In this document: positions 22,160-43,560 of the stretch, one piece after another
Layout of the letters: the number at the start of each line of letters is the position of its first letter
Numbering within the stretch: the first letter of the stretch is position 1
From: Pseudacidobacterium ailaaui
GTDB taxonomy: Bacteria; Acidobacteriota; Terriglobia; Terriglobales; Acidobacteriaceae
DNA length: 64,000 bases
Direction: 5' to 3'
Assembly: GCF_000688455.1 (NCBI RefSeq)
Contig: NZ_JIAL01000001.1
Coordinates: forward strand, 2,697,001-2,761,000
Translations under genes and position numbers: made by a program
Notes under the pieces: generated by a model
Database searches by the model: none
Seen by the model: only the letters and a program-made list of their open reading frames with translations
Told to the model about the DNA's origin: nothing

Positions 22160-22236
<77 letters not shown>

Positions 22237-22310: not shown

Positions 22311-23493
22311 TTACTGTAGCGTCGCAGATGCCTCGCCTGTGGCAGAGTTCTGCGAGTTGGGGCCAAATACCAGTCCTACAACCTGGCTGTTTGCTTGGCG
22401 TTTCGTTTCCGTCATGGCCCGCCCATAGACATTCATCGTCGTCTGGATCGAAGCGTGACGCATCAATTCCTGTTGCACCTTCATAGGAGCACCGGTCTCG
22501 TCGAGCCAGGAGCGGTAGGTGTGGCGAAAAGTGTGCCACCCAATGTCTTCTCCCAGTTTGGCGAGCTTTGCAGCCCGTTTGATCTGCGACTTCTGCAGGC
22601 TCTCCTGGTGGTACGGCCTCCCCGTGACCGGATTGGCAAAAACCCAATCTTCATCTCGCGGGAAGACTGAAGCAGAGCGCCATTGCAACAGCACCTCCGC
22701 CAGACGAGCATCGAGCGGAACATCGTCTCTTGAGTATTCCGTCTTCACGTCGTCCACCCTTCCGCCCACCACGCTTCTCTGGACCAGAACCGAGCGATTC
22801 TCGAAATTGAAATCGCCCCATTGCAAGCCCAGAATCTCGCTGACCCGAAGCCCCAGGCACTGCGCTACCAAAACCATCGTGCGGTAGGGTTCACCCCAGA
22901 AACTTGAGCAGTTCAAAGAACTCGTCCACGTCAAGAACCCGTGGCCGCTTGAGCCGTTTGCTTCCATTCTTCACGCGCACCAGAGAGACAGGGTTCTTGC
23001 CGAGTTCGATAATGCCCCACCGCTCCGCGCACTTGAAGACTTGGTGCATGATTCCCCGTACATGAGTCTTTGACTTTGGGGCCAGCGGCAAATCGTGCAA
23101 CCACTGCTCCATCGCCATCGGTTTCAGCTTATCCACGGGGTGTTCTCCCCAACGTGGGCGGATGTGGACTCGGATGTTCGACAAGTGCGATTTCCGAGTC
23201 GAGTAACGCTCCGAGAGTTCCTGCTCGATATACCGGTCGAGCAAGGCTCCAAAAGACGCCGCCTCCACTTCCGCGCGTGGAGATTCTTCGTTGAGTCTAA
23301 GAAGAAGAGCTTGCGTGGCTTTCCGTGCTTGGGTCTCCGTTGTGAGCACACCGCGATCACCAAGGATCACGCTCTGCCGTTTACGCATCCCCTGAGAATC
23401 CGTTTCGTAATAGCGGAACTCCCACACGTCCGGTCCGCGCTCGCGCTTCCTCAACCGCAGACTTCCATATTGATACCGTGTCCGAACTAGCAA
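22311..23493 (-). pseudogene. Tyrosine-type site-specific integrase, split by a one-base frameshift
   Basis: Two overlapping frames make one phage-type integrase. The first (22891-23493) covers the N-terminal Arm/SAM-like DNA-binding region and ends at DVDEFFELLKFLG. The second (22311-22967) continues with EPYRTMVLVAQCLGLRVSEILGLQW. The two join perfectly if one C is removed from CCCC at 22894-22897 (GGGG on the coding strand). Catalytic residues are all present in the second part: Arg in LGLRVSEI, His-x-x-Arg in HTFRHTYR, His in LMRHASIQ, and Tyr in TTMNVYGR. It would cut and rejoin DNA at the adjacent tRNA-fMet. The lesion may be real inactivation, a frameshift event or a homopolymer read error. 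Confidence 0.88.
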
Positions 23494-24079: not shown

Positions 24080-25195
24080 TCACCGTTCCGTCAAGGGAAC
24101 GATCCTATGATCGTAGAGAGCCAGTACCTGTTTCACCATCGTCACGGGTTCTCCTCGGAAGGACTGGTCGGGCGCATTGGATAGAACTACTACAGCCAGA
24201 CTATCGTCTGGGAAAATCGCGTTGAAGCAGTATCCCCCTGCGAAAGGGGCATAGCCGTTATGCCACACTTCACGGTGGGTTCCAATGGAAGTGGCGACGA
24301 AGCCCATCGCATATTCTAGGGGTTTTCCATCCGGCAACCTGCCGTTGGTCCAAAGCTCGCGCCGGGAACCCGAATCAAGTATCTTGTCGCTGAGCAGGGC
24401 CGAATCCCAACGAGCCAAATCTCGTGCCGTTGAAACGATGCTGCCGGCGCCATAGTACAGATCAAGGCTGACCGTGCGTTTCACAGGCCGGAAATTTCCA
24501 TTACTGCCTTCGTACGGCGTCGCGGTTCCCGACTGGGCCGCAAATCCATTCCCGGATGAACTCATGCCGAGTGGGCCGAAAATATGATGAGCCAGAAAAC
24601 TTGAATACGTAGTACCGGACGCACGGGCAACTACAGCGGCGAGCATCGCATAATTTGTGTTGCTATAAGCCCACTTTGCACCGGGGGCAAAATCAGGTTT
24701 ATCTGTTCTCAAGAAATTGATGATTGTCTCAGGCGCAATACGTCCGGTAAGTGGCCAGGGATGTTCACGAGTATTCGGCTAATTATGCAGGCCAGAGTCC
24801 TGGTTCAAAAGCATCCGAAGAGTGATCCGGTCGGCATTGGGCATACTCGGGACATACTTTTCAAGCTTATCTTCAAGGGAAATCTTACCCTGCTGCGCGA
24901 GAAGAAGGATGGATACGGCAGTGAATTGCTTGGTAAGCGAGCCGATGGCGAAACGCGTGTCTGCCGTGACGGGTGATCTTGTCGCAAGGTTGGAAAATCC
25001 ATATCCCTTAGCGAAGACAATACTTCCGCGCGACCACACGAGAAACGCGAAACCGGGTGCCCGATGGTGGTTATAAGCTTGTTCGCCAATTTGATCGAAC
25101 GCGGACTTCGCCGGCCTTTCGGCGCTAACCATCACGGGACCACCCAGAGGCAAAATCAACAGGATACCGACAAGTCTCTGAGCGAGGCGACCCAT
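24080..25195 (-). pseudogene. Serine hydrolase (class C beta-lactamase family) with in-frame amber codon
   Basis: The frame reads through from MGRLAQRLVGILLILPLGG (signal peptide, start 25195) to the stop at 24080, except for one TAG at 24781-24779. It follows NQDSGLHN where relatives have Tyr (typical SGLHNYPN). Active-site motifs are intact on both sides: GSLTKQ (SxxK nucleophile motif) before, and YSNTNYAML (Tyr-x-Asn motif) and a HNGYAPFAGG box after. The intact form would be an exported penicillin-binding-protein-like esterase or peptidase of about 370 residues. Reading: recently inactivated by a single substitution (TAT or TAC to TAG). It could work only with amber suppression. Confidence 0.8.
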
Positions 25196-25255
25196 GAATC
25201 TGATCCTACTATTCCTTGGGGCAGTCCTCAGTATCCGGCCCCTCATGCTCCAAAA

Positions 25256-25389
25256 GACATTCCCCGGATAGCAACAGCATAGCCGAGGCGCGGGCGGTGT
25301 CAAGGGCGGCTGCGCCGCCGCGAAGCGGTCAAGACCCTTGACACTGCCCTCTCCGCCTCGGCGCACAATCCCAATATCCGGGGAATGTC
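25256..25389. repeat. 134-bp nested inverted repeat (MITE-like or large hairpin element)
   Basis: The ends are perfect 15-bp inverted copies: GACATTCCCCGGATA (25256-25270) and TATCCGGGGAATGTC (25375-25389). Inside lies a second, imperfect pair: GCCGAGGCG (25282-25290) with CGCCTCGGC (25354-25362), then GTGTCAAGGG (25297-25306) with CCCTTGACAC (25335-25344). These are broken only by a 3-base bulge and one mismatch. The apex is GC-rich (25307-25334). It has no coding capacity. It abuts the serine hydrolase start region and lies about 1 kb beyond the end of the relaxase gene. It could be a miniature transposable element, a structured termination site or a transfer-origin remnant. Confidence 0.7.
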
Positions 25390-25478: not shown

Positions 25479-25940
25479 TCAACCAACGGTTGCAGAGCGT
25501 TTTAGCGATGAACTGCCATTGCCGGCGCGCCTGCTGGAACGCGCCCGTGTCGCAGAAGATCGGACAGCGCCAGTCCTCCGCCTGCCGCGCGAAGTACGCG
25601 CCACGCGCCGGGGAAGCGTTTGCAAACGTTCAATAGTGTCCGGGAATCGAGTAACAAGTTCCACAAATGTGGCGGCGAGCGGGCTGACCTGCCCTCCCTG
25701 CTCCCACTTCTCTACCGTGCGCGGGCTGACGCGCAGCATGTTCGCCCAGACCGCGCGGGAGACATTGAATTGCTCGCGAGCCGCAACGAAGAATTCCGCA
25801 CCCGGAGATTGCTCCACATTGGGAACTGGTACAGCGTGGGAGCGAAGCGTCACCTTGCCCTCGCGCTGGGCTTTCATAGCCTCCACGCCTTCCATCAACT
25901 CGGCAAACAGATTCCGCTTTGTCGCGTTCTGCTTTTTCAT
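25479..25940 (-). CDS. HTH antitoxin/regulator (HigA/NadS-like) with Arg/Ser-rich tail
   Basis: A 153-residue protein. Residues about 55-95 form an XRE-type helix-turn-helix (FFVAAREQFNVSRAVWANMLRVSPRTVEKWEQG), the pattern of antitoxins paired with RelE/HigB-like toxins. Family members usually end soon after the next helix. Here about 45 extra residues follow (RRVARTSRGRRRTGAVRSS and on), very rich in Arg and Ser, which looks like out-of-frame readthrough into non-coding DNA after loss of the original stop. It overlaps the toxin stop by four bases (ATGA), so the toxin gene comes first. It should bind the palindromic operator at 26327-26345. Confidence 0.75.
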   Translation of the reverse strand: MKKQNATKRNLFAELMEGVEAMKAQREGKVTLRSHAVPVPNVEQSPGAEFFVAAREQFNVSRAVWANMLRVSPRTVEKWEQGGQVSPLAATFVELVTRFPDTIERLQTLPRRVARTSRGRRRTGAVRSSATRARSSRRAGNGSSSLKRSATVG

Positions 25941-26326
25941 TTCCTGCTCCTGGCCCTTCGCACGGCACGTTCCGCTTCGAGTAGCCGTCTTAACTGGTCT
26001 CGCTCCTCTTTCGTCATATCAGCAGCTTCATCTTTGTGATAAAGCGTCAGCAGCCAGATTTCCTCTTCTGACAAGAAGCGGTAGTAAATAATCCGCAGGC
26101 CGCCGCGCCTGCCCTTGCCGCGGCGTGAATCTCCCCACCGCAGCTTGCGAATGCCTCCGGCACCAGGCACCATGTCTCCGGCTTCGGGATTCTTCGCCAA
26201 GTACAGCTGCAAATCGGCGAATCCATCATCGTTGAGATAACGATCCCGATACCGCGCGAAGGCCGGCGCTTCGACGAACTGAAACCATCCCGTGCTGTTG
26301 CGCCTGGGGCCACTCTGTCTCCTCAT
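25937..26326 (-). CDS. RelE/HigB-like toxin of a type II toxin-antitoxin pair
   Basis: The core FQFVEAPAFARYRDRYLNDDGFADLQLYLAKNPEAGD, then GIRKLRWGDSRRGKGRRGGLRIIYYRFLSEEEIWLLTLYHKDEAADM, is the RelE/HigB2 fold: a Lys/Arg-rich middle and an IYY-x-W-L-L-x-x-Y-x-K end. Such toxins cut mRNA on the ribosome. The start is uncertain. In-frame ATGs exist at 26335 and 26326, but both lie inside the predicted promoter/operator, upstream of the expected transcription start. A C-terminal coiled tail (KEERDQLRRLLEAERAVRRARSRK) completes it. It is translationally coupled to the antitoxin. Confidence 0.75.
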   Translation of the reverse strand: MRRQSGPRRNSTGWFQFVEAPAFARYRDRYLNDDGFADLQLYLAKNPEAGDMVPGAGGIRKLRWGDSRRGKGRRGGLRIIYYRFLSEEEIWLLTLYHKDEAADMTKEERDQLRRLLEAERAVRRARSRK

Positions 26327-26353
26327 TATACCCATGCTGGGTATAGTTCGCAA
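26325..26353 (-). promoter_or_regulatory. Toxin-antitoxin promoter with embedded operator
   Basis: On the minus strand TTGCGA (26353-26348) is followed after exactly 17 bases by TATAAT (26330-26325). The spacer and the start of the -10 box hold the palindrome TATACCCATGCTGGGTATA (26327-26345 on the plus strand, 8-bp arms around 3 bases), an ideal operator for autorepression by the antitoxin complex. Confidence 0.75.
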
Positions 26354-26382: not shown

Positions 26383-29112
26383 CTACAAGCCCAGCCCAAT
26401 ATCGTGACCAATGTTTATTTCGTGGCGAGGGACGTGTGGTTCGATTTGATGGGCTGGAGCTTGCTGAATGCTGCGCTCTGGTTGGGGCAAATAAGCTTGC
26501 TCACGCGCCAACTCCGTGGCTGACGGACGCGCAGACGAGATTCCAAGTGATTCACGCAGTTGCTCACGGTCGCTGGTGACGATTGCGATTTCGCTGCGAC
26601 CACGCGAAGCCCCGACGTAGAACAACTCCTGTTTCATGGCATCGGCTGACAGGATTACGCCGTCAACCGTTTTCCCCTGGCTGCGATGGGCGGTAATGGC
26701 GTAGCCGTGATCGAATAGGTGATAATTCGTCGGCAGTGTGCGACCATCCTCAAGTTGAATGCGTCCCCGCTCGATACCACGCACTGTCACCAGCTCGCCA
26801 TTCGTCGCGCGGAAATCGGCATCTCGGCGATTGGCCGTAAGCATGAGCCGGTCGCCCGGAGCCACGTCAATGGATTGCCGCTGATAGACAGAAAAGGAGC
26901 GCGTCTGTGCCGGTGTAAAGCTCCTCTCCTCGCCGTGAGCATTGCGAGCGATCACCGTGCCAGAGTCAACACGGCTGACAGTGAGCGACTCGTGTTTCTC
27001 CATACCCCTCGCTGCTCGATGCACTACCAGCACCTGCCCCTCACGATAGTTCGCCAGATCACGTTTCTGGGCTTCCGTCCATTGCAAAGGGACATATCGA
27101 TCCATCGTGACGCTTTGGCCGAGATGTCCGCGCGCAGAAAGGTCATTGCGAATCGCGCGAGTGACGCGGCCAATTTCCTCATGCGTGGGCGCGACAACCA
27201 AAACACGCCGCGACGGATCGACGGTCATCTCCCGGTAAAGATCAGCAACCGCCCGGCCACGCTCGCTACAGGGGACCTCGTGCACAGCGCCAAGCCGCTC
27301 CAGCTTCTCAAAGCCCTGTTCGGGAGCCTGGCGCTGGGTTTGAATGGCGTCTCTATATTGTGCGTGTGTCTGGCGCTGTACGCCGGTCAGAGAGACGCTC
27401 TTCATCTGCGACTCGCGCTCCAGAATGCGCAGGGCGTCTGACGCCTCGACGCTCTGTATCTGGCGTGTATCGCCCGAAAAAACGACGCGTGCCATATGTT
27501 GCTCGGCAAGCCGGAGTATGCCCTCCATCTGTCGCCCCGAGATCATTCCGGCCTCATCGACGACCAAGACCCTGCCCCGGAGCGCAGATTGGGCCGTTTC
27601 GTCCCCAACCAGGCGTGAGACCGTCATCGCATCGCGAAAGCCCACCTTTTGCAACTCCTCCACCGCACCGCGCGTGGGCGCAACCGCTGTGACTTCGCGG
27701 CCAGACTCACGCAGGCCGCGATCAATCTCCTTAAGTGTCGCGGTCTTGCCGGTTCCGGCAGCCCCGCGCAAATTGATGGCAAAATCGCGAGAATCCAGAA
27801 CCTGCTGCACGGCGCGCCGTTGCTCATCACGCAGGTGCTCGGATGGTTGAAACTCATGTCTGCCGCCAAGCCGCGCGTATTGGTCGGTGCCATGGTTCAC
27901 CATGGCAACCATGCGCTGTTCACGATCCAGACTCTCGTGTGTGGCCAGCCGGTCGCCGGCATGAATGACGGCTCCCTGGGATTTTTCGATTTCCAGCGCG
28001 CCGCGCAACTGGCTGAGATCGACCCGTCCACGACCGTATCGCAGAGCTTCGGCTAGCAGTTCGTGATCGTAGACGACAGAGCGGCGTTCGAAGAGATGGT
28101 CCTTTGCGTGTTGCAGCGAATCCGCCGCTGGCGAAAATTCATATGAACCGCTCCGGCTTTGCTCCAGGGATGCGCCTCGCAGGCGATCCAGGCTGTGAGA
28201 TTCTTCCGGTGAGAGTCGTGCTCGTTGTTGTTGGCGAACTTGTTCCGTGGCAATCTCGGTGAGCTTGTCAGCGTGGGATTCCCGGACCAGCACGGCCACT
28301 TCGTTGTCTGTCGGCTTCCGGCCATGATGTTCTTTGAATTCTTCAATGGCTGCGTCGCGCTGTGCGCTTCGCTGACTGTAGCGTTCCAGAAGTTCATCTG
28401 CCACGCCACGAATTTCAAAGCCGAGATCCCGGCCACGGGAATCACGGCGTGGTTCAATCTCATAACCAAGATTCCGCACCTCGTTTGCCAGAGCGTTCCG
28501 GTAGACCTCTGTGAGGTATGCCCGCCGCTCGTACAGCCCCGACGCCTGCAAAGCCTTCCACCGGCCCTCTACGCCGTCGTAGGTAAGATTGGCGGCCACG
28601 GCGTGAGTATGCAGTTGTGGATCGAGTTCTCGGCTTGTATCGTGCCGATACGTCGCGATAATCCAATTGCCGGTTACGCGATTCTCATTCGCTCCGTTCG
28701 GTCGCACACGAGCGCCTGCATGGTTTTCCGCTTCCGCCAGGGCTTCGCCGACGGCTTTATCGTGGGCGGCGACCAGGCGCTCGTCACGGCCAACCACAGC
28801 TTGAACAGAAACCGACTTTGGCGCAGAGAATGTCAGATCGTAGAGAGACCGCGCCTTGCTCTGTTCGCTCCCGTCACCGTTTGTCCGGTCGGCGCTGTGG
28901 CGCGGGCGCAGGAACTCGCCGGTTTCGGGATGCAGCCCTTGCCGCACCGCCTCAAACTGTTCAGGTGCGACGTTGCCCCGCAGCCCAAGCAGCTCTGCGC
29001 CGCGGCCGTGCCACTCGCCCTGTACACGACGGTGTTCGTCGTAGTAGTCGCTGTGTTGCAGATGCCGCTGTGCATAGCCAGCGCCGCCGGTCATAGCCCG
29101 TATAGTCAGCAC
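26383..29112 (-). CDS. MobF-family conjugative relaxase-helicase (TrwC/TraI type)
   Basis: A 909-residue protein. The N-terminal relaxase domain has tyrosines near residues 13 and 23-24 (SDYYDEH), a GEWHGRGAELLGL block, LTFSAPKSVSVQ, and the metal-binding His cluster in ATYRHDTSRELDPQLHTHAVAANL (about 154-177). The C-terminal SF1 helicase of the RecD/TraI type has a Walker A at LRGAAGTGKTATL (about 448-460), VDEAGMISGRQM (Walker B) and a C-terminal TAHRSQGKTVDGVILSAD motif. It nicks oriT and unwinds the strand for transfer. No coupling protein or type IV secretion genes are in the window, so this is a remnant or a mobilisable element. Confidence 0.9.
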   Translation of the reverse strand: MLTIRAMTGGAGYAQRHLQHSDYYDEHRRVQGEWHGRGAELLGLRGNVAPEQFEAVRQGLHPETGEFLRPRHSADRTNGDGSEQSKARSLYDLTFSAPKSVSVQAVVGRDERLVAAHDKAVGEALAEAENHAGARVRPNGANENRVTGNWIIATYRHDTSRELDPQLHTHAVAANLTYDGVEGRWKALQASGLYERRAYLTEVYRNALANEVRNLGYEIEPRRDSRGRDLGFEIRGVADELLERYSQRSAQRDAAIEEFKEHHGRKPTDNEVAVLVRESHADKLTEIATEQVRQQQRARLSPEESHSLDRLRGASLEQSRSGSYEFSPAADSLQHAKDHLFERRSVVYDHELLAEALRYGRGRVDLSQLRGALEIEKSQGAVIHAGDRLATHESLDREQRMVAMVNHGTDQYARLGGRHEFQPSEHLRDEQRRAVQQVLDSRDFAINLRGAAGTGKTATLKEIDRGLRESGREVTAVAPTRGAVEELQKVGFRDAMTVSRLVGDETAQSALRGRVLVVDEAGMISGRQMEGILRLAEQHMARVVFSGDTRQIQSVEASDALRILERESQMKSVSLTGVQRQTHAQYRDAIQTQRQAPEQGFEKLERLGAVHEVPCSERGRAVADLYREMTVDPSRRVLVVAPTHEEIGRVTRAIRNDLSARGHLGQSVTMDRYVPLQWTEAQKRDLANYREGQVLVVHRAARGMEKHESLTVSRVDSGTVIARNAHGEERSFTPAQTRSFSVYQRQSIDVAPGDRLMLTANRRDADFRATNGELVTVRGIERGRIQLEDGRTLPTNYHLFDHGYAITAHRSQGKTVDGVILSADAMKQELFYVGASRGRSEIAIVTSDREQLRESLGISSARPSATELAREQAYLPQPERSIQQAPAHQIEPHVPRHEINIGHDIGLGL

Positions 29113-29675: not shown

Positions 29676-32600
29676 ATGGCGACGACCCCAACTCGCGCGA
29701 ATGAAGAATTGCGCCTTACCCTGTCGGAGGTTCGTAAAGACCTCCTTGACTTTGGCCTGCGCAATCCCCTCCTTAATTATAGGCTCTTGAAAACGCGAGG
29801 GCTCGAAGTTCCTGAAACGCCCCCAGCAGATGTTTTCCGCCTGCTCGTCACCGAGGGTGCAGAGCTTTCATTTCTTCCTATTGAAGCGACGCCGCGCATG
29901 GGGCTGCTTTATGAGCCCGAGGACAGCGAGCGAGATGATCGACGCGCACTTGTGCGAACGATGTCGGGTAAAAGAACACAGACGCAGCAGCAAATGGGCT
30001 TTGAACCCAATTCCAATGAGTTGCCAACAGGCCTTTCTGAAAAGGAATTAGAAAAACGACTCCTGGCTACTTATTACGCCGCCAAGAGTTCGATTGAAGA
30101 GCAAGGAGTCAACACCCTGTTCATCGCCCTTGGTATGCTCATCTGGCGAGACTCCAAAAATGCCGATGAGGTTCGCCGCGCACCACTATTGCTGATTCCA
30201 GTCGAGTTGGAGCGGCGAAGTGCGGGCGAAGGGTTCCATCTGAAATACTCTGGCGACGACGTGGCCCCGAATGTCTGTCTGCTGGAATACCTAAAACAGT
30301 CGTTTGGTCTTGTTCTGGATGGATTATCTGATTCGGAAGAGATCGACGTTGACTCCTATCTCTATTCCTTTGGTAAGGCTGTTTCCAAGCAAGATGGTTG
30401 GAGCGTCGATCCAGAGTCGGTAGTCCTGGGGTTCTTCTCATTCGCAAAGTTTTTGATGTATCGAGACCTTGACCCAGCTACGTGGAACGACGAATCAATG
30501 CTGCTCAACCACGACGTTTTGAATCGCCTCCTCGGGGCAAGTACCTTTACAGGGGACGCATCACCCCTCTCAGATGACGTATTCGTCGATGACCATATCC
30601 CTCCATCGAGTACCGCGCACGTCGTGGACGCCGACAGCACCCAGTCGCTCGCCATTTTCGACGTGCAGCGCGGACTAAATATGGTGATTCAAGGGCCACC
30701 CGGAACCGGAAAATCGCAAACAATTGTCAACCTGATCGCAGGTGCCTTGGCCTCTGGGCAAAGAGTGCTGTTCGTCGCTGAGAAAAAGGCTGCGCTTGAG
30801 GTTGTCAAGAGTCGGCTAGATCGCATCGGACTGGGAGCAGCGTGCCTTGAATTGCACAGCAACAAGATCAAGAAGAAGGAAGTTATCGGCGAGTTGAAGC
30901 AGACTGCATGGCTTCAAACCAGAGCCGCCCGGCGCGACGAATCGACTGTCGCTGCATTGGATGAAGCAATCACTCGGCTAAACGAATACTGCAATGCGGT
31001 CAATTCCCAAGTTGGCAAATCGGGTGAGACCATCCGTGATCTCTACGGTTTAGTCTTGCCTCTAAACAGGAAACTGAGTGGCATTGCACGCCCCGGGCTG
31101 GAGATTTCCAACTGCCTGAACTGGACATCTGCCGATGTTTATCGCCGCCAAGAACTCGTTGAGCAACTACAGGAGCGTGTCTCGCAGATTGGCGTACCAA
31201 GTCAACATCTATTCTGGGGGAGCCAGCTTCAGGTAGTGCTGCCATCCACCAAGGATAGTATTTGCCGTTCACTGAACGACGCCGAAGCCACAGCTGCAGC
31301 CCTTCACATCGCCGTGTGCAACGTGGCAACAATGCTTGGTCAAACACCCCCAGAGTCGCGTAGAGCGTTTGACGCTCTTTGTGCCACCGCGAGACAGGTT
31401 GCACTCGCCCCACCACTGGAAAGCATCGACACAGCGAATCCAGATTGGCTTAACCAAGAGTCGCAAATCGAGTCTGCGTTGTCAGCCCTCTCGGATGTCG
31501 TAGGCATCCGCTCTCACTGGCAAGGTCTTATTCGTGAGGAAGCATGGTCCACGGATGTATCGCAACTCCAAGCAGTGCTAAATGAACTGAGCCACAAGTG
31601 GTGGAGAATCTTTTCCTCTCGCTGGAAATTTTTGAAGCGCGAGGTCGCTGCGCTGATTACCAAGCCCATCGGTCAGTCGAATGCGCCTATGAACGAAATA
31701 CTTGAAGCCATCAGTTCGGAAGCAAAGGGTACTGCTGTCCTGGCATCTTCAAGGCAACTTCTTTCAAGCCTCTACGGGGTTCATTGGAGAGATGAACAAT
31801 CCGATGTGCCTCTCTTGAAGAGTCAATTCGCGTGGATCGTTGCTACAAAGCGCGGTGTAAAGGCAGGGCAATTCGACGAATGGTGCCTCAACGCAGCAGT
31901 TGCGTTTTCAGATAAGGCTGCACTTCTGGAACGTCTGTCGGAAATTGACACTCTCGTTCAAGCGTATTGGACGCGCTTGGAAGAAGTTTCCGATAAGTTG
32001 AAACTCGGCGACGCCAATTCTTGTCCACTTCGGGCAGCTCTTTCGACGAAGTGGGGCAAAGACGCTGCTACCTTCTTCAAGTCTGTTTCGGAAGCGGTGG
32101 GTGATCTCGATGGCATCGCAGCATATTTGCAAGATCGGGATCGGTGCAAAGATGACGGGTTAGAGAGTGTTGTGCAATTGGCAGACACTTGGAAGGATGC
32201 GGGGCGGTATCTATTCGACTTCTTCGAGTACACGCGGGCATCGAAACTTCTGGAGACAGCTTTCCAGAATAGCCCCGTTCTTTCATCTTTCGATGTGCTG
32301 CGCCATAAAAGCACATGCCAGTCTTTTCGAGAACTCGATTTGCGTCATATCGAATTGAGGCGCGAGGCGCTCGCAAGAAAGCACGTTGACGGTCTGCCTA
32401 GGAATGGAACTGACAGTGGCCAGATCAGTGTTCTTTGGAGAGAGTTCGAGAAGAAGGCCCGTCACATGACCATCCGCAAGTTAATCAGCAAAGCGGGCAA
32501 TGTGGTCCAGACCATCAAACCCGTCTTTCTGATGAGCCCGCTTTCAGTGGCAAACTTTCTACCGCCTGGCACTATCAATTTCGACCTCGTGATCTTCGAT

Positions 32601-34496
32601 GAAGCGAGCCAGGTCAGACCAGCGGATGCGCTGGGGGCGATTGTTCGTGGAAAACAGACGGTCGTGGTCGGCGATAGCAAGCAGCTTCCTCCGACGAGCT
32701 TTTTTGAAACCATGGTGGCGCAGGACGCCGATACAGAGGACGACGATGCCGTTGCCACATCCGATATTGAAAGCATTCTTGGACTGTTTTGCTCAAGAAG
32801 AGCGCACCAGCGCATGCTTCGGTGGCACTACCGCAGCAAACATGAATCGCTGATTGCCGGGTCGAATCATCTGTTTTACGATAACCGGCTTGTCGTGTTT
32901 CCAAGCCCTGACCGGCACAAACAAAATGTCGGATTGGTTTATCGGCGCATTGAAAACGCGCACTACGACAGATCGCGTACAAGAACAAATCCGAATGAAG
33001 CAAGAGCGGTTGCGGAGGCAGTGATTCGTCACGCAAAGGAGCAACTGGAGAAACCGGCAAAGGAACGGTTGACGCTTGGAGTGGCGGCACTCAGCGTTGC
33101 ACAGCGTGACGCGATCCTCGATCAACTTGAAATGCTTAGGCGGCATTCACCTGCAAGCGAGGAATTCTTTGTAGCTACATCACATGAGCCATTCTTCGTG
33201 AAGAACTTGGAAAATGTTCAGGGTGATGAACGGGATGTGATTTTCATCAGCATCGGATACGCGAGAACTGCCGAAGGCTATTGGGCAAACAGTTTTGGGC
33301 CAGTAAATCGCGCTGGGGGAGAACGGCGGCTCAACGTGCTGTTTAGTCGTGCCCGAATCCGATGCGAAGTATTCACCGGAATTTGTTCGGAAGACATCAA
33401 CACAGAAAACAGCGGCGATGGTGTAAGAGCACTCAAGACCTTCTTGTCTTATGCCGAGCATGGTCAACTCGATGTTCCTTTTGCTTCTGGCCGCGCATCA
33501 GATTCGCCGTTTGAAGAAGAAGTTGTAAACGCGCTTCAAATGCGAGGCCATACCGTCCATACTCAAGTTGGCTCAGCGGGCTTCTTTCTCGATCTGGCAG
33601 TTGTTGACCCCGATTCTCCGGGCCGATACCTGCTCGGCGTTGAGTGCGATGGGGCAGCGTACCACAATGCTCGCTCAGCCCGTGACAGAGATCGTCTTCG
33701 TCAGGCGGTCTTGGAGTCCCTTGGTTGGAAGATTCATCGCATTTGGTCAACCGCATGGTTTCGAGCGCCCGAAAAGGAAATGAGGGCTTTGGAGGCGGCT
33801 ATCGAAGAAGCCAAGCTGCACCGTGGCGAAAATCCGAAGGAGAGCACCAAGCAGAAAGTCAAACCAGCATCCTCTCCCATACGACGCCCCGACGATCTAA
33901 GCGATCCTCCGCCTTTGGCAATCCAGTCGCTAAACGGCACAAGGTATAAGTTCGCAAAAATGAAAATCAATCTTGGTATGCAGGAATTACACGAGGTTTC
34001 GCGGGAACAACTGGCCAACTGGCTGCAACAAGTGGTTGCTGTTGAAGGGCCTGTTCATTGGCTGGAAGCTACAAAGCGCATTGCAGATGCTGCAGGAATT
34101 CAGCGTGTTGGCAATCGCATTCAAAAGGCATTTCAAAGTGCTTGCACCTACGGGCATATGTACAAGAAATTCGAGAGCCGCAAGGGATTTCTCTGGTCTT
34201 ATGACCCCGTTCCTGTTCAGGTTCGTGATCGCTCTGAATTTCCGCCGCAGCAAAAGAAGCTTGAATATGTGGCCCCCGAGGAGATTTGTGCCGCCATAGA
34301 ACAGGCGGTGAAGGAGAGCTACGGAATGGCCGCCGCCGATGTCGCAGTTGCAGCCTGTCGCCTCCTAGGATTTGCGCGTATTACCGAAGATATGCGTGCG
34401 GCTATTGGAGAGCAACGAGAGAAGCTAGTCAAAGAAGGCAGATTGGAGTTGAGGGGAGAGACCTTAGTACTGAATCAAGATATCTCAGTGCGTTAA
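29676..34496 (+). CDS. DUF4011-SF1 helicase-Vsr-like nuclease-DUF3320 protein (probable anti-phage defence, Hhe-like)
   Basis: A 1606-residue multidomain protein. DUF4011 lies at the N-terminus (VRKDLLDFGLRNPLLNYR, about residues 19-36, and on to about 300). An SF1 helicase has Walker A GPPGTGKS at 340-347, Walker B IFDEAS near 974-979, VVVGDSKQLPP, and ALSVAQRDAILDQL. A Vsr/MTES_1575-type nuclease spans about 1275-1370 (FEEEVVNALQMRGH, then DLAVVDPDSPG, LLGVECDGAAYH) with Asp and Glu-x-Asp in place. The C-terminus resembles DUF3320. This fused layout matches, from memory, the single-gene defence protein called Hhe. It most likely unwinds and cuts foreign DNA. No frameshift is seen. Its stop overlaps a convergent pseudogene. 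Confidence 0.8.
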   Translation: MATTPTRANEELRLTLSEVRKDLLDFGLRNPLLNYRLLKTRGLEVPETPPADVFRLLVTEGAELSFLPIEATPRMGLLYEPEDSERDDRRALVRTMSGKRTQTQQQMGFEPNSNELPTGLSEKELEKRLLATYYAAKSSIEEQGVNTLFIALGMLIWRDSKNADEVRRAPLLLIPVELERRSAGEGFHLKYSGDDVAPNVCLLEYLKQSFGLVLDGLSDSEEIDVDSYLYSFGKAVSKQDGWSVDPESVVLGFFSFAKFLMYRDLDPATWNDESMLLNHDVLNRLLGASTFTGDASPLSDDVFVDDHIPPSSTAHVVDADSTQSLAIFDVQRGLNMVIQGPPGTGKSQTIVNLIAGALASGQRVLFVAEKKAALEVVKSRLDRIGLGAACLELHSNKIKKKEVIGELKQTAWLQTRAARRDESTVAALDEAITRLNEYCNAVNSQVGKSGETIRDLYGLVLPLNRKLSGIARPGLEISNCLNWTSADVYRRQELVEQLQERVSQIGVPSQHLFWGSQLQVVLPSTKDSICRSLNDAEATAAALHIAVCNVATMLGQTPPESRRAFDALCATARQVALAPPLESIDTANPDWLNQESQIESALSALSDVVGIRSHWQGLIREEAWSTDVSQLQAVLNELSHKWWRIFSSRWKFLKREVAALITKPIGQSNAPMNEILEAISSEAKGTAVLASSRQLLSSLYGVHWRDEQSDVPLLKSQFAWIVATKRGVKAGQFDEWCLNAAVAFSDKAALLERLSEIDTLVQAYWTRLEEVSDKLKLGDANSCPLRAALSTKWGKDAATFFKSVSEAVGDLDGIAAYLQDRDRCKDDGLESVVQLADTWKDAGRYLFDFFEYTRASKLLETAFQNSPVLSSFDVLRHKSTCQSFRELDLRHIELRREALARKHVDGLPRNGTDSGQISVLWREFEKKARHMTIRKLISKAGNVVQTIKPVFLMSPLSVANFLPPGTINFDLVIFDEASQVRPADALGAIVRGKQTVVVGDSKQLPPTSFFETMVAQDADTEDDDAVATSDIESILGLFCSRRAHQRMLRWHYRSKHESLIAGSNHLFYDNRLVVFPSPDRHKQNVGLVYRRIENAHYDRSRTRTNPNEARAVAEAVIRHAKEQLEKPAKERLTLGVAALSVAQRDAILDQLEMLRRHSPASEEFFVATSHEPFFVKNLENVQGDERDVIFISIGYARTAEGYWANSFGPVNRAGGERRLNVLFSRARIRCEVFTGICSEDINTENSGDGVRALKTFLSYAEHGQLDVPFASGRASDSPFEEEVVNALQMRGHTVHTQVGSAGFFLDLAVVDPDSPGRYLLGVECDGAAYHNARSARDRDRLRQAVLESLGWKIHRIWSTAWFRAPEKEMRALEAAIEEAKLHRGENPKESTKQKVKPASSPIRRPDDLSDPPPLAIQSLNGTRYKFAKMKINLGMQELHEVSREQLANWLQQVVAVEGPVHWLEATKRIADAAGIQRVGNRIQKAFQSACTYGHMYKKFESRKGFLWSYDPVPVQVRDRSEFPPQQKKLEYVAPEEICAAIEQAVKESYGMAAADVAVAACRLLGFARITEDMRAAIGEQREKLVKEGRLELRGETLVLNQDISVR

Positions 34497-35420
34497 GTAC
34501 CTTTTGGCAGCAAGTCTTTAGTCCCGACGAGATAGAGCCGTTCAGCCGGATCACTGGCAAGCTGCAGCAATTCGGGCGAGAAGCCTCCCAACGCGAAGAG
34601 GACATAACTGGGCTTGTTCCGCCAGCGAGCCTCGGGCAAGCTGGCAACCTTCGCTTGCAGCGCGCTCAGATCGATCAGGCGCATTACACTATCCGCGCGC
34701 CACTTGCATTCGCCAAAGAGGTAGGTTCCGTCAGCGAGTTCCGCCATGAGGTCGATTTCGATGCGACCGTCACGGCTCCAATAGCGGGCCATCTTGCGAA
34801 CTGTCAAGCCGAGACGCTGTTTTGCGTGACGTTGAAGCCACTGCCCGCAGATTTCCTCGAATACCGACCAGCCCATGTACTCGGCCAAGCGAGGCGCGAC
34901 ATGGGTGGCATACACAGCCGCAGGATCAGAAAACTGCAAGTCGCTGGCAAGCGGCGCGACGAAGCGATACCAGAAAGCCAGGAACGGATCGGCAACGCGG
35001 TACAAGTGCGCGACGTTCGGAATGCTCGTCAAAAGGCAATTCGCGTCGAATCCAACCCCGTTTCCAGAAGGCTGCGCAAAGGCTTTGAAAGCGCCCCGCG
35101 TTCCACACCGATCAACTGTTGAATGCCGTTGAATTTTGTTTCGCCGCCAGCAATCGCGGCAAGAATTGCGTTGTAAGGCGCAGGGTCGCGAATCTGTTCG
35201 CTGCCAAGGAGGAAGCGCACTTCATTTTCGAGAATGGCGCGCGGCTGCATCAAGAGAGTGACAATCTCTTCGGCAGGTGGGCGAGACGGATCGACCAGAG
35301 CGTGATACCGCGGTGTTCCGCCAAAAACACCGTACATTAGCAGCTTTTCAACAACGCCATAGTGCGGGCTGTTTGCGTAGAAGCAGGCGACATCTTCGTA
35401 CTGAAGCGGATCATGCCGAG
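34493..35420 (-). pseudogene. 3' fragment of an AAA/DUF234-type ATPase, frameshifted twice
   Basis: Three frames together give the C-terminal half of an archaeal-type ATPase with DUF234: GVFGGTPRYHALVDPSRPP, then IQQLIGVERGALSKPLRSLLETG (winged helix), GWIRRELPFDEHSERRA, and YRVADPFLAFWYRFVAPL with a nuclease-like tail (GRIEIDLMAELADGTYLFGECKW). They join if one C is removed at 35056-35059 (CCCC) and one base near 35003-35007. The N-terminal P-loop half is gone: upstream of about 35,420 the DNA switches to TonB-receptor sequence. Such ATPases are common in accessory DNA and their role is unclear. Confidence 0.75.
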
Positions 35421-37758
35421 CCGAAAGTTCGGCGCAAAGACCTGTCCTAGAGTTACCGGCATCTGAAACGTGGAGTTCGACGCTGGTTTCGTCTTGAGAG
35501 ATGCGAAAGGCGGGAAAGGGATGGTTCCGAGCGGTGTCCCTGACCATGGATCGCTCAGTGGAATGTTCTGACCGAGGGAAGGGTTCGCGTAAAACGTAAA
35601 GGTTGGGCTGAAGGGGGCAATATCTGCGATGTGATTGTACTGCGAGTAGCGCAGCGGAGCCGTGAAGATGCCGAAGCCGCTGCGGACCGCTGTCCCCTTG
35701 CTGAAGAAAGGCTGCCAGCTGAATCCGATTCTTGGCTCGACGTAGCCATACGTAGTTGGCATAAGAGCGTCGGTAATCCCCGTATCGCCCGGGAAGACCA
35801 TACCACGCGGTGCGTTGGGGAACCGCGTGCTCTGCTGCCCTGGGACAAAGACCGACCCGCGACCTCCCACGGAAGCAGGAGGGGTATTCGGATCCCACCG
35901 CACGACAAGATTCACAGTGAGATTTGGCCTCAACTGATATTGGTCCTGCGCATAGAGACCGAACTGCCAGCCTTTGACGCTGATGATCTCGCCGGCGCCC
36001 TGTGTGAATTGATAGACATCTCCAAGCAGAAAGTCGGCGAGGCCGAAGCCGGTATATCTATTCGAGAACTTCAGAATGGGCACGCTAGGATAGTCAGCAG
36101 ACTCCTGTGCAAACTGCCTGTTGACATCGACACCGAGCGTCACGGAATGGTGCTGACCGAACTGACGTGTTACGGCCTCGGTCAAGCCATAGGTCCTGTG
36201 GTTTTCGTCTTCGAGCTCCGGGGAGTGTGTATTGAAGCTGTTTGTAACGCTGAACTGTTCAATATAGCAGCTATCCGGAGGATCGACAACATTGATGACT
36301 TTCGACCAGCAGAAGGCATCTCCTTAATTGTCTCTGACTGTGCCAGCCGCATTCACATGTTCGCCTGTCCAGGGTGATATTGTTCAAGGTTTTCGCATTG
36401 ATCGCCCAGGTGTGGCCAATAGCCTCATTGAAGTATTTGCCTGGTATTGCCTGCAGCCACGCCAGAATGTTCCCATTCACGGAACCTCCCTTCTGGTTGT
36501 AATACTGGGTGAAGCTGCGGACGAAGAGATGTTGATTGTCGTTGATCGTGTAATCGATCCTCGCCGTTCCTTCGTTATAGGAGTCGTGCTGAGCCGGTCC
36601 GGCATAATTCGTCAAACCGGTCGCTGGCGTCTGTCCGAGAGGGAGGGCGGTCGTTGCGATCGTCACTGCGGCACTGTTGAAGAGAGCAGGGTTGACCTGA
36701 TTCGGCTTTCCGTTGACCGTAGCGAACGGAGCCTTAAGGGTTGTGGGTACCGCACTGAAATCGCCGTTGAGCATCGCCTGGGTCGGCGTATATGTCGTAT
36801 TCCTTGCTGCGTTGGTGCTTTCCCTAGTTCCCTGGTAGTTCACAAAGAAGAAGAGCTTGTCTTTGAGGATCGGGCCTCCGACGTCGCCACCAAATTGATT
36901 TCTCTTCAGTGAATCGACGGCGTGCGAGAAGTAGTTCGCGGCGTTCAGGTTGTTATTGCGAATGAACTCGAAAAGGTCGCCGTGAATCTGATTGGTGCCC
37001 GATTTCGTTTGCACGCTGACCACTGCATTCGGTGCGAAACCGTAGCGGGCATCGAAGTTGTTGGAGATGACTTTGAACTCCTGGGTCGCGTCCGAATTTG
37101 GAAACGGCGCTGCCAGTAGCAGGTAGGTGTTCATATTCGGCGCACCATCGAGGAGATAGTAAGTGCTCCCCTGTCTGCCGCCGCCCGCGGAGGCTCCGGT
37201 TTCATCCGGGAGGGACTGACCTCCCTGTAATTTGCTGGCCGTAGAAAACATGACGTTGCTGATACCTGGAGTCAGAAAGACCAGATTCGCGGGATTGCGG
37301 CCATTGAGCGGAAGCTCTTTGACGGAGTTCTCGCCGATGACCTGGCTGATCTCGCTGTTGGTTGTATTCACGAGGGCCGCGCCGCCTGTCACTGTGACGG
37401 TCTCGTTGGTGCTTCCTACCTCGAGCGCGATATCGACGGTGGCATTCTGTCCTACGGTCAGAGTGATTTCGGTCTGGATCTTTCTTTTGAAGCCGTTGGC
37501 ATCGACCGTGACGGTATAAGGGCCGGGCAGCAACCGGCCGACGTTGTAGACGCCGGAGGCGTTGGTCACTGTGTCCTGGCTTGCGTTCGTCGCGGAGTTT
37601 TCGACGTGGAAATGGGCTCCAGGAACTGCGGCGCCGGTCGTATCGGCAACCGTGCCCGTAAGTGTGGCGTTCGTCACTTGAGCAGACGAAACAGACGTGA
37701 AAATCAGGATACTGGCGAAAGCCCCCATAAGTGTTCGTAGCATTCGCGTTACATGCAT
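35415..37758 (-). pseudogene. Oar-like TonB-dependent receptor, broken and truncated
   Basis: The gene starts with a signal peptide (LMGAFASILIFTSVSSAQ) and a carboxypeptidase-regulatory-like domain (ATLTGTVADTTGAAVPGA, about residues 30-47). A plug follows with VKELPLNGRNPANLVFLTPG, then barrel sequence. At about 36,345-36,360 the frame is lost, and in the continuing frame a TAA interrupts (RDN-stop-GDAFCW) before barrel sequence resumes (TEAVTRQFGQHHSVTLGVD). It ends abruptly at FAPNFRLGM near 35,415, where ATPase sequence begins. Intact acidobacterial relatives are about 1000-1200 residues and import carbohydrates or metals across the outer membrane. At least three lesions make it non-functional. 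Confidence 0.85.
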
Positions 37759-39841: not shown

Positions 39842-42685
39842 ATGAAAGAGTCGATCGGCATGAATAACGGGCAAGAAACACTGAGAGATGTGATAGTGTT
39901 TGCCAAGCAATTTGAAATACTGACAGGCTTCACGCCAATGAGGTGGCAACAGCGCCTGTACGACGAATACTTTGCTAACGGCGCGTTGCCTTCTTCGGTC
40001 AGCATGCCCACAGGTCTGGGTAAGACAGCGGTCATGGCTATTTGGCTGGTTGCTTTGGCACAGCAGATGAAGTCAGGCCAAGTCAGTTTGCCACGCCGTA
40101 TGGTTTATGTGGTGGACCGCCGCGCTGTGGTCGACCAGGCGACGCATTTTGCCGAAGACCTGCGCGCTAATCTTCAGAATATTGAAGCCATAGAGCTGCG
40201 TGACGCACTAGGGTTGGGAGAGGCCGAAGCCCTACCCATCTCCACTTTGCGGGGCCAATTCGTAGATAACCGCGACTGGTTGGAAGACCCATCGCATCCT
40301 GCCATCATCGTCGGCACGGTCGACATGGTCGGCTCACGGCTGCTCTTCGAGGGCTATGGAGTCAGCCCCAAGATGCGGCCTTATCACGCTGGACTACTTG
40401 GAGCAGACACGCTGGTGCTGCTGGACGAGGCGCATCTGGTTCCACCTTTTGAAGCGCTGCTGGCCGAGATCGCCGAAAATGCTGGACGATATGGTTCGCA
40501 GGAGAAAGCACTTGGAGCACTGATTCCGAAATTTCAACTATTGCCACTATCAGCCACCGGGCGCAGACAAACGGCGCGCCCGTTTGTGCTGGAAGAAAGG
40601 GATTTTCGTAATCCCGATGATGCCATCGTCCTGCCACGCCTTTTCGCAGAAAAGCACCTGACCTTGCATGCAAAAAGCGGCGAGAAACTCGAAGATGGCT
40701 TGGCCAAGCTAGCCTGGGCCGCCGCACGAGAGACGCAAGAACCAAACAACGGCGAGAATACGAATACTAGTCTCAAGCCCGTGCGTGTCATCGTCTACTG
40801 CGATTCGCGCGACGTGGCGGAAAAAACCAAGGCTGCGCTTGACAAAAAAGCCGAGGAAACCGTCTCCAAAGGAAGAACAGAGCTTTTCGTAGGCGCACGC
40901 CGGGTGAGAGAACGCACCATGGCCGAACAGCGGTTGAAGGAATTGGGGTTTCTTGCAGACACTGGTAAGCAAACGGCGCCAGCCTTCCTTGTGGCTACTT
41001 CGGCAGGTGAAGTCGGCATAGACCTGGATGCTGACCATCTGGTTTGCGATCTGGTGGCCTGGGAACGAATGGTGCAACGCTTCGGGCGCGTGAACCGGCG
41101 CGGAGGCGAAAATCGGCTAGCGAATATAGTGGTCATTGATGAAGGCGAGCCCCAACCTAAAAAGCAGGAAGCGCCGACTGCCGATGAGCAGATGCGCATA
41201 CGCATCTACCGAGGCGTCAAGCAACTGCTCGAAAAATTGCGTGACGTTCATAGCGCGACAATCAGCGTCAGTCCTGAATCTTTGCGCCAACTGAATGAAC
41301 GCGCCAGCAAGGACGACACCCTGCGTCAACTCATCGCTGATGCCAGTTCTCCTGCGCCGCTGCGTCCGGCACTGAACCGCGCGCTGGTGGATGCCTGGAG
41401 CATGACCTCTCTGCCAGAACATACCGGGCGGCCTGAAATCGCACCTTGGCTGCGTGGCTGGGTGGACGAGGAGCCGCAAACGACGGTGGTGTGGCGCAAG
41501 TACCTGCCGGTGCGTACAAAGCCGCAGGTGACGAAAAAAGAAATCGAGGATTTCTTCGAGGCTGCGCCGATCCATACGAGCGAAACGCTGGAAACGGAAG
41601 CATTCTCCGTTATGAAGTGGTTGAAGGCTCGGGCCAGTAAATTCGACGTAGAAGTAAACGATCATGTATGCGGCATATTGCTGACTGTGGATGGCAAGTT
41701 CGCCCAAGCCTTGTATGTGAAGGACTTGCTGGGTGATTTAGAAAGTGACAAAGAGCGCCATAAAGACATAGAGAAAAAACTGACAGGCAAAACTCTCGTC
41801 CTCACTGCGAACTTCGGTGGCTTGAAGGATGGCTTGCTAAAAAAGGACGAGAAAGATGGCTGGTTGAGTCCCGACAGGGAGAGGTTGCAATTGCCTGAAA
41901 CTGCCGATGGCGATGCGCACTGGATGGATACAGACGGAGAGACGCCGCCCGTTATTCGCTTCCGCATCGTCGAACGCGATACGAAGTCCGCAGAAGACAG
42001 CGATGATGCCTGGCTTGAAAGCCAGCGCTTTGTGTTGGAACGTAGCGACGACGGCGAAATCACGCGCTGGCTCTCCATCCAGAAATGGCGCGACACCTCG
42101 AACACCGAGAACGACCGCGCGGAAGGGCGGCCACAGGCGCTGGCTGAGCACCAGTGCTGGACAACGAAGCGTGCAGAAGCGATTGGTAAACGGCTCGGTC
42201 TTCCAGAGGACTATATCGCCATGCTGGCAATCGCCGCGCGATTGCACGACGAAGGCAAGCGCGCCAGGTGCTGGCAGAAAGCCTTCCAGGCAGAGCGTGA
42301 CAAGAAGAAATTTGGCATATCGGGCGACTTGGCCAAAACGCGCGGCCCTATCCATCAACAAATGCTGGGCGGTTACCGGCACGAATTTGGTTCGCTACCC
42401 CATGCGAAAGATGACGCCGAGTTCAAGAAGCTCCCGGAAGAACTGCAAGACCTTGCCTTGCATCTGATTGCCGCACATCACGGTTACGCACGGCCCTTGA
42501 TCGCTACCAGTGGCTGTGATGATGCGCCTCCTTCAATGTTGGAAGAACGCGCCTGCGAAGTGGCCCTGCGCTTTGCCCGCCTGCAAAAACGTTGGGGGCC
42601 GTGGGGCCTGGCATGGTGGGAATCGCTGCTGCGCGCTGCCGATGTGCAGGCGTCGCGTGACAACGACAAGAGGGAGAAGAACTGA
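39842..42685 (+). CDS. cas3: Type I-G (I-U) CRISPR Cas3, helicase then HD nuclease
   Basis: A 947-residue Cas3 with the reversed order typical of subtype I-G/I-U: SF2 helicase first, HD domain last. Walker A is MPTGLGKT (55-62), the DEAH box is in LVLLDEAHLVPP (about 193-204), and the C-terminal helicase motif is ERMVQRFGRVNRRGGEN. The HD nuclease has RLHDEGKRARCW (His-Asp 802-803), HQQMLGGYRHEFGS and LIAAHHGYARP (about 876-886). All catalytic motifs look intact. It unwinds and degrades the target strand after Cascade binding. Its stop overlaps the next start (TGATG), and all four cas effector genes form one tight operon. Confidence 0.92.
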   Translation: MKESIGMNNGQETLRDVIVFAKQFEILTGFTPMRWQQRLYDEYFANGALPSSVSMPTGLGKTAVMAIWLVALAQQMKSGQVSLPRRMVYVVDRRAVVDQATHFAEDLRANLQNIEAIELRDALGLGEAEALPISTLRGQFVDNRDWLEDPSHPAIIVGTVDMVGSRLLFEGYGVSPKMRPYHAGLLGADTLVLLDEAHLVPPFEALLAEIAENAGRYGSQEKALGALIPKFQLLPLSATGRRQTARPFVLEERDFRNPDDAIVLPRLFAEKHLTLHAKSGEKLEDGLAKLAWAAARETQEPNNGENTNTSLKPVRVIVYCDSRDVAEKTKAALDKKAEETVSKGRTELFVGARRVRERTMAEQRLKELGFLADTGKQTAPAFLVATSAGEVGIDLDADHLVCDLVAWERMVQRFGRVNRRGGENRLANIVVIDEGEPQPKKQEAPTADEQMRIRIYRGVKQLLEKLRDVHSATISVSPESLRQLNERASKDDTLRQLIADASSPAPLRPALNRALVDAWSMTSLPEHTGRPEIAPWLRGWVDEEPQTTVVWRKYLPVRTKPQVTKKEIEDFFEAAPIHTSETLETEAFSVMKWLKARASKFDVEVNDHVCGILLTVDGKFAQALYVKDLLGDLESDKERHKDIEKKLTGKTLVLTANFGGLKDGLLKKDEKDGWLSPDRERLQLPETADGDAHWMDTDGETPPVIRFRIVERDTKSAEDSDDAWLESQRFVLERSDDGEITRWLSIQKWRDTSNTENDRAEGRPQALAEHQCWTTKRAEAIGKRLGLPEDYIAMLAIAARLHDEGKRARCWQKAFQAERDKKKFGISGDLAKTRGPIHQQMLGGYRHEFGSLPHAKDDAEFKKLPEELQDLALHLIAAHHGYARPLIATSGCDDAPPSMLEERACEVALRFARLQKRWGPWGLAWWESLLRAADVQASRDNDKREKN

Positions 42686-43560
42686 TGGCCGAATCAAAAA
42701 TCCCGGTGGACTTGTTCAACCCGGGCCAGGTGTTCGCCTGCCTCGGCTTCATGGAACTGGCTGATGTGCTGCTCGGCGATGCCGAAGCGGGGTTTGATTG
42801 GAGTGATAAGGAGCAGGTCTGGTTTCGCCTCGCAGCGAATGGAGACGAATGCCCGTTCAAGGCTGCAATCGAATTTGTAATAGGTGCAGATCTTAAATCC
42901 TTATCACCCTCGGCCAATAAAATAAATACAGCAAAGTGGAATGTGCAGACGAGAGAGATCGGTGAAGATGAGGCATTTCCCTTTCCTTCGCCAAATAGCC
43001 CCGCCACCTTACCCATTGAACTTTCCAGGGACGGCAGGGTATTTCAAGTAAATCACTGGGGCGACGGCACTGTGCGCGACAACGTGAAATTTTGGGCAGG
43101 TTCGGGCGGGTATCCGGGGGCAGCATTGTGGCGCGATGCGGTGGACTTGGTAGAAAAGCAAGCGCTTGCTCACACTGCCAATCCTTTCGCACTGCGAGCA
43201 CCACAGAGCAGCAGTTTTCGGTTTGACTGGCACAGAGATTACATTCCATTAGATGCAGGGTTCTCGCCGAACGAGCATGGGGACATCGAGATGGTGGGTT
43301 ACCCGCTGGTGGAGTTGTTTGCAGCCATAGGCATGACTCATGCACGTCCACAGCGGCCTGACAAGCGCAACAAGCTCTTGTATCGCTATGGCGTCATTGG
43401 TAGCGATGCGCAAGATGCAGGGCTACTCGCTCCGCCCCTCTTGCGTGTCGCGCTCGGCGCGCATGTACTGCCGTTTCCACAGCGTTGCTTCCGCATGAAT
43501 TTGGGTTGGCCGGGTCAGGAAAATCAGGCTCGTTGCATTACGACGGTGACCGAAGAATGA
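42685..43560 (+). CDS. csb3: Type I-G CRISPR protein Csb3 (GSU0052 family, Cas8u2-like)
   Basis: A 291-residue protein that begins with the family pattern PVDLFNPGQVFACLGFMELADVLLG. Further typical pieces are VNHWGDGTVRDNVKFWAGSGGYPGAALWRDAVDL and DAGFSPNEHGDIEMVGYPLVELFAAIGM. In the Geobacter type I-U reference locus the equivalent gene is GSU0052, next to cas3. It is taken to be the small large-subunit analogue (Cas8u2) of the surveillance complex, which recognises target DNA. Position two in cas3-csb3-csb1-csb2 agrees with that. No frameshift is seen. Confidence 0.85.
   Translation: MAESKIPVDLFNPGQVFACLGFMELADVLLGDAEAGFDWSDKEQVWFRLAANGDECPFKAAIEFVIGADLKSLSPSANKINTAKWNVQTREIGEDEAFPFPSPNSPATLPIELSRDGRVFQVNHWGDGTVRDNVKFWAGSGGYPGAALWRDAVDLVEKQALAHTANPFALRAPQSSSFRFDWHRDYIPLDAGFSPNEHGDIEMVGYPLVELFAAIGMTHARPQRPDKRNKLLYRYGVIGSDAQDAGLLAPPLLRVALGAHVLPFPQRCFRMNLGWPGQENQARCITTVTEE

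Follow-up and report, generated by a model that had tools for sequence, protein, structure and literature searches.

Among the closest described systems are the giant proteins of the MTES_1575 type, which, according to their published description, combine HEPN, transglutaminase, SF1 helicase, Vsr and two wHTH domains (PMC3710099). For the larger relatives, the same source proposes that modification genes are lacking, that the wHTH domains recognise DNA and that the Vsr domain is a DNase (PMC3710099). Proteins of this kind are also listed in the PADLOC and NCBIfam collections under the names PDC-S37 (PDLC05009), ProA (NF058533, an anti-phage protein) and Hhe (NF042953), the last being described by NCBIfam as a DUF4011 anti-phage protein. 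Neither a source for the name ProA nor the origin of the Hhe system was found in the literature, and a full-text literature search returned no paper under the name PDC-S37, in which PDC presumably stands for "phage defence candidate".

Here, we analysed a stretch of 64,000 nucleotides of the Pseudacidobacterium ailaaui genome (the window), in which one large gene had been noticed as a putative defence gene. By its sequence, this gene belongs to an already known kind, listed by PADLOC and NCBIfam under anti-phage proteins or candidates. Our preferred reading, to which we assign a probability of roughly 0.55, is that a mobile island carries it as cargo and that its product defends against phages on its own, as a one-gene system combining a UPF1-like motor, DNA binding by winged helices and cutting by a Vsr-fold module.

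Results

The gene lies on the forward strand, together with all its features given below, and consists of a single ATG-started open reading frame (29676-34496, 1606 aa) with no internal stop, encoding a full-length helicase-nuclease of the PDC-S37 type that is also ProA-like. The layout proposed in the preliminary description, a 1606-residue DUF4011-helicase-Vsr-DUF3320 fusion that unites an SF1 helicase and a Vsr-like nuclease in one intact gene, is confirmed by Pfam, motifs and models, and the three profiles suggested there as a check (DUF4011, DUF3320 and MTES_1575) all match above their cut-offs. DUF4011 comes first (residues 23-206, positions 29742-30293; 143.4 bits, Pfam cut-off 22.2), followed by the Walker A motif GPPGTGKSQTI (residues 340-350, 30693-30725), found by regular expression and invariant from G340 to I350 in an alignment of 13 full-length rows, the window protein included. 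The 12 relatives in this alignment match the window protein from end to end at 31-42% identity, which excludes chance. An insert of about 500 residues (approximately 421-929, 30936-32462), nearly all helical in the secondary structure of the N-terminal model, then splits the helicase by separating the Walker A half of RecA1 from its motif II half. Motif II (DEASQ, 975-979) and motif III (GDSKQLPP, 999-1006; together 32598-32693) were recognised by regular expressions and by invariant columns (D975, E976, A977, S978, Q979, G999, D1000, Q1003, P1005 and P1006), as were the motif V region KNLENVQGDERD (1176-1187) and motif VI (RRLNVLFSRAR, from residue 1217; together 33201-33359), and ENVQGDER is likewise present among the helicase motifs. 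All five elements of the UPF1-like SF1 set (Walker A, DEAS motif II, GDxxQ motif III, motifs V and VI) are present. The Pfam families AAA_11, AAA_12, AAA_30 and AAA_19 score above their cut-offs, ResIII staying below its own.

Downstream of the helicase motifs, the Vsr-like nuclease is recognised as MTES_1575 (PF18741; residues 1279-1376, 33510-33803; 135.3 bits, cut-off 38.2), and alignments show that E1280, D1306, E1323, D1325 and H1330 are all present. The protein is thus not a helicase devoid of its nuclease domain, nor has the nuclease lost its active-site residues, the two outcomes that had been named beforehand as counting against the fusion. The C-terminus holds two winged helices, the first corresponding to DUF3320 (1437-1484, 33984-34127; 59.5 bits, cut-off 25) and modelled as three helices with a beta hairpin, the second (about residues 1534-1599, 34275-34472) made of helices 605-618, 624-634 and 642-657 and strands 661-664 and 667-670 in the numbering of the C-terminal model. 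No other DUF4011 gene was found in the 3.69-Mb genome.

Two AlphaFold2 models were obtained, one for residues 930-1606 (68 rows, mean pLDDT 87.7, pTM 0.66) and one for residues 1-1020 (46 rows, mean pLDDT 86.7, pTM 0.65). In the C-terminal model, RecA2 is followed by a nuclease module of the order helix-strand-strand-strand-helix-strand-helix and by the two winged helices. E1280 sits on the first helix of the module, D1306 on a strand, and E1323 and D1325 at the end of the next strand. The structural control proposed earlier for the Vsr-like part is thereby answered for the fold and for where D1306 and E1323/D1325 lie in it, the answer on active-site geometry being one of secondary-structure placement. 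Residues 348-452 of the model (1277-1381 of the protein) superpose on I-Bth0305I (3r3p_A) with a VIA-align Z of 11.1 and an rmsd of 2.7 over 96 of 97 positions. Of the 44 rows in which E, D, E and D are intact, 37 were built into a profile, whose E, D and ExD fall on those of 3hrl, an endonuclease-like chain (E 0.0059); I-Bth0305I and Vsr were absent from its three PDB sequence matches (E up to 10).

The N-terminal model aligns with IGHMBP2 (4b3f; VIA-align Z 17.8, rmsd 3.4, 227 aligned), with UPF1 (2xzo_A; Z 17.7, rmsd 3.8, 243 aligned, the first aligned residue 8 corresponding to UPF1 295) and, in a tie with these two, with Dna2 (Z 17.4, rmsd 4.1, 239 aligned), and VIA-align recovers a UPF1-like core fold with stalk and 1B ahead of RecA1. 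All three of these matches start within model residues 1-9; chains consisting of RecA domains only, eIF4A for example, align over 164-177 residues from about residue 290. From this pattern, DUF4011 appears, in the model, to occupy the position that the stalk and the 1B barrel have in helicases of the UPF1 type. With the same model, Foldseek returned no helicase below E 0.001 (best helicase E 0.0028), and because its matches are weak there, the UPF1-like reading of the N-terminal half rests on the second aligner.

One aspect of these comparisons speaks against the preferred reading: with the exception of Dna2, the solved helicases that match best are mostly known to work on RNA (UPF1, Sen1, Senataxin and Aquarius). 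For both models, RNA helicases of the UPF1/Sen1/Aquarius group predominate among the closest structural neighbours, as would be expected if the protein acted on RNA or RNA:DNA hybrids, its UPF1/Sen1-like motor sensing phage transcripts or R-loops and its Vsr-fold module cutting or simply binding RNA. The nuclease profile is in line with this, its best sequence matches among solved chains being RAP-domain proteins (E 0.00034); for one such protein, FASTKD4, a cavity resembling that of Vsr and binding of a poly(A) tail have been described (PMC11879112). We nevertheless consider action on RNA unlikely: against the N-terminal model, the DNA enzyme Dna2 is level with the best RNA helicases (Z 17.4 versus 17.8), and the set of acidic residues that DNA endonucleases have is preserved in the nuclease module. 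The window protein also carries winged helices, a fold that usually binds double-stranded DNA.

Among the known families, PDC-S37 gives a full-length match, with 1796.2 bits and residues 10-1598 of the protein covering positions 4-1545 of the 1550-position model. The ProA profile reaches 1468.8 bits (1469.1 by genome search), below its curated cut-off of 1500. In the genome search of the phylum, 5 of 297 genomes had a ProA match above 1500, and three of these five matches were without the first 346-354 positions of the profile. In a control scan of five relatives, all five passed, whether they had an extra N-terminus (2200.7 and 1945.1 bits), were co-linear with the window protein (1637.6 and 1504.7) or had a longer insert (1647.1). 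Since the three scanned relatives without the N-terminus all pass, its absence is not the whole reason for the score below the cut-off. The extra N-termini share a conserved cysteine (21 of 23 rows) and a conserved histidine (22 of 23), and Transglut_core matched 2 of 10 scanned extensions at a limit of 0.01, one of them above the Pfam cut-off. A profile of the 23 extra N-termini matched 24 of the 84 loci that we compared (4 on plasmids, 80 on genome contigs), 23 of these being its own rows, and left the window protein unmatched at E up to 10.

Hhe, the name and layout first put forward for this gene, was rejected: the window protein obtains 979.9 bits against the NCBIfam cut-off of 2000, about half, and 743 bits with the PADLOC model (PDLC02194), as opposed to 1796 bits from end to end for PDC-S37. 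None of the five scanned relatives passes the Hhe cut-off either. As a separate observation, the relatives at five loci on methanogen contigs (L054, L062, L066, L067 and L070) are extended by large additional segments that follow the nuclease or lie C-terminally, L066 and L070 running off their contigs.

The distribution of relatives is patchy in both phylum and family. In the phylum, 22 of 297 genomes match at E 1e-20 and nine have a single continuous match to 1390 or more of the 1606 residues, both counts with the genome of origin included; in the family, the figure is 18 of 300 at E 1e-100, again with the genome itself. Two copies, 50-51% identical to the window protein, are present in the nearest family genome, one of them interrupted by a stop codon; the copy at locus L141 has an integrase-like stretch about 1 kb away. 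In the sole congener compared (G309), a 66-codon 3' stub (residues 1541-1606; 189 bp, 81% identity) lies at a different locus (L140, 9723-9920), the simplest reading being that the gene was once present and then lost. Relatives occur on 424 of 72,556 plasmid records, 19 of which match 80% or more of the query at a single site, on 1 of 50,697 phage records and at 44 loci of viral contigs, three of these (L143, L144 and L150) covering residues 16-1568 or more.

This distribution bears on whether the protein might serve in DNA repair or recombination and have nothing to do with defence. The pairing of an SF1 helicase with a nuclease is Dna2-like, and, in a study on Pseudomonas aeruginosa, a DUF4011 gene is a core gene present in every isolate (PMC10250203), so that not every DUF4011 gene is a mobile gene for defence. 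A housekeeping role here seems very improbable given the patchiness in phylum and family, the stub at another locus in the only congener compared, the relatives on plasmids and the presence of the gene on a stretch with an integrase and a relaxase.

On that stretch, a tRNA-Met gene (22160-22236) adjoins the remnant of a tyrosine integrase broken into two open reading frames (22311-23493, reverse strand; Pfam, the N-terminal match falling just below its cut-off). The 3' end of the tRNA had no second copy in the window or the genome with up to two mismatches. A serine hydrolase of the beta-lactamase family, also broken in two (24080-25366, reverse strand), comes next, followed by the mobility gene of the island, a MobF (TrwC-type) relaxase (26383-29112, reverse strand; Pfam TrwC 266.6 bits). 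Its best plasmid matches, Acidisarcina and Granulicella records among them, are MobF relaxases at about 96% coverage and 31% identity. A RelE-like open reading frame below the Pfam cut-off (25937-26353) adjoins it. Since the relaxase is an unbroken reading frame of 909 aa, the helicase-nuclease gene is not, as had been stated, the only large intact gene in the left half of the island. To the right of the gene lie a truncated DUF234 protein (34493-35032, reverse strand), an outer-membrane protein broken in two (35337-37758, reverse strand) and, from 39842 onwards, the type I-G cas genes Cas3g, Cas8g, Cas7g and Cas56g (39842-47105, forward strand; PADLOC). The position claimed for the gene between a conjugation remnant and the cas operon therefore holds for the relaxase on its left, which is unbroken, and needs correction on the right, where broken genes intervene. 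Between 21500 and 50000, a search for repeats at regular spacing gave none; a CRISPR-type array is therefore elsewhere or missing.

The gene seems to have no fixed partners. No DNA methyltransferase was found among the Pfam matches of the 22 proteins, out of 26 scanned, that lie on the island stretch (about 22-48 kb, where two more cas proteins were recognised by PADLOC only and the short open reading frames were covered in part), and a restriction-modification system was thus not recognised. Across the 84 loci, with neighbours taken as open reading frames of at least 90 aa in flanks of 6-9 kb (less at contig ends), no conserved partner emerged: the commonest neighbour families reach at most 11 loci and are irregularly placed, which fits a gene working alone. 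By eye, the commonest neighbour clusters resemble transporter, sensor-kinase and dehydrogenase genes. Near relatives without the extra N-terminus, 100 of 188 eligible open reading frames within 2.5 kb matched 191 PADLOC families at 1e-10, and 100 of 107 beyond 5.5 kb matched 13 families. This sign of a defence neighbourhood is only suggestive, because families and not proteins are counted, Gabija-like proteins match dozens of families each and the top family accounts for at most 4 of 100 proteins. An empty island site was not found either: in all five relatives compared, the sigma factor, ThiF and BamA genes of the right flank are not within 15-20 kb beyond the glycosyltransferase of the left flank, beside which no tRNA-Met was found. 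In none of the five do the two flanks (20411-22027 and 47328-52690) occur together within the 15-20 kb compared on each side, and the chromosome seems to have been rearranged here.

The integrity of the nuclease varies across the family. The C-terminal alignment holds 73 rows, the window protein and 72 of the 84 loci (10 dropped as broken, open-ended or carrying large extra parts, 2 more as open-ended), and masked letters in one of them (L080) leave 72 readable rows. The triad D1306/E1323/D1325 is kept in 52 of these, the window protein included, and missing in 20, so the nuclease cannot be the effector throughout the family; the wider set including E1280 and H1330 is intact in 46 of 73 rows. 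The 20 triad-less rows all show the DEASQ, motif III and motif V patterns, with Walker A in 18 and motif VI in 17. In the 52 triad-intact rows, DEASQ, motif III and Walker A are universal, motif V is matched in 45 and motif VI in 49; since intact rows also miss motif V and VI patterns, a missing pattern does not by itself denote an inactive helicase. In a quick tree without bootstrap, built solely from the helicase columns, the triad state changes six times, with five independent pairs on starred branches, which most simply represents repeated losses, and the extra N-terminus corresponds to one change. The starred set of the window protein comprises 22 rows, 17 with the triad and 5 without.

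The triad is missing in 13 of 22 rows with the extra N-terminus (the other 9 keep it) and in 7 of 50 rows without, these seven being four Bacteroidota and three others. By eye, no neighbour was common to the four co-linear rows from Bacteroidota whose nuclease is degenerate (L063, L071, L072 from Pedobacter and L076 from Mucilaginibacter). An exchange of the nuclease for the transglutaminase-like N-terminus as effector was considered and rejected: there is one N-terminus event and one independent pair only, and because the joint loss is a single clade of 13 rows, a causal link between N-terminus and triad loss would be conjectural.

Discussion

The defence cargo initially proposed stands as far as context and kinship go, the layout being listed as anti-phage or candidate and the stretch carrying an integrase remnant and a MobF relaxase, and the activity itself is predicted from sequence. 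In the favoured mechanism, an ATP-driven, UPF1-like SF1 motor would load onto DNA that is foreign or being replicated, the pair of winged helices at the C-terminus would aid DNA binding and a metal-dependent nuclease of the I-Bth0305I/Vsr fold would cut the DNA. Discrimination between self and non-self would probably depend on DNA structure or replication state and not on methylation, because no modification partner was found nearby. For the window protein, we infer ATPase and nuclease activity, DNA as substrate, a defence function and this basis of discrimination. The full-length PDC-S37 match and near-cut-off ProA match, the intact motifs, the patchy spread and the lack of a conserved neighbour argue for defence as the best explanation. 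What weighs most on the other side is the recurrent degeneration of the nuclease, together with the core DUF4011 gene in P. aeruginosa (PMC10250203).

The protein could also be a non-specific killer, in which a helicase sensor restrains the nuclease until phage-induced DNA damage or forks free it and the host chromosome is degraded in abortive infection. Such a pairing of nuclease and helicase is common to Hachiman, whose helicase, according to a published report, constrains the nuclease until DNA damage is met (PMC12278908). Nothing in our data tells this behaviour from direct cleavage of phage DNA, and we regard it as quite unlikely.

Returning to the stand-alone anti-phage protein, what emerges from our analysis is an intact PDC-S37-type protein whose island also bears type I-G cas genes and a MobF relaxase. 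It also provides a picture of the family, with a UPF1-like motor, DUF4011 seemingly at the stalk and 1B site, and a nuclease whose site is degenerate on a number of separate branches, the motor being retained there. This degeneration of the predicted nuclease site, with helicase motifs that mostly stay, is perhaps a new aspect. A tentative extension, possible if doubtful, is that the motor forms the immune core and the nuclease an exchangeable effector, one clade having a transglutaminase-like (peptidase-type) N-terminus and the window protein being a minimal form that would rely on the nuclease alone. The family picture makes testable which activity, motor or nuclease, gives protection, with intact and degenerate relatives as a natural test set.

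Compared with known systems, the window protein differs from PDC-S37, itself a candidate only, in nothing that was tested, two co-linear relatives scoring 2025 and 2090 bits. It is homologous to positions 355-1903 of the ProA profile and is missing positions 1-354. The likeness to Hhe is confined to two matched stretches over helicase and nuclease, and the Hhe profile is about 300 residues longer ahead of that part (window residues 810-1385 on positions 1117-1689 of 1797). The nuclease module shares its fold with Vsr and with the EDxHD homing endonuclease I-Bth0305I (Z 11.1 to the latter), and differs by its location within a helicase. Finally, the helicase, the Vsr-like nuclease and the two winged helices of the MTES_1575-type giants are all found in the window protein, in both cases with no modification gene nearby. 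Unlike these giants, it is without the N-terminal HEPN/transglutaminase-like part, DUF4011 starting at residue 23, and it represents a short form of the MTES_1575-type giant architecture.
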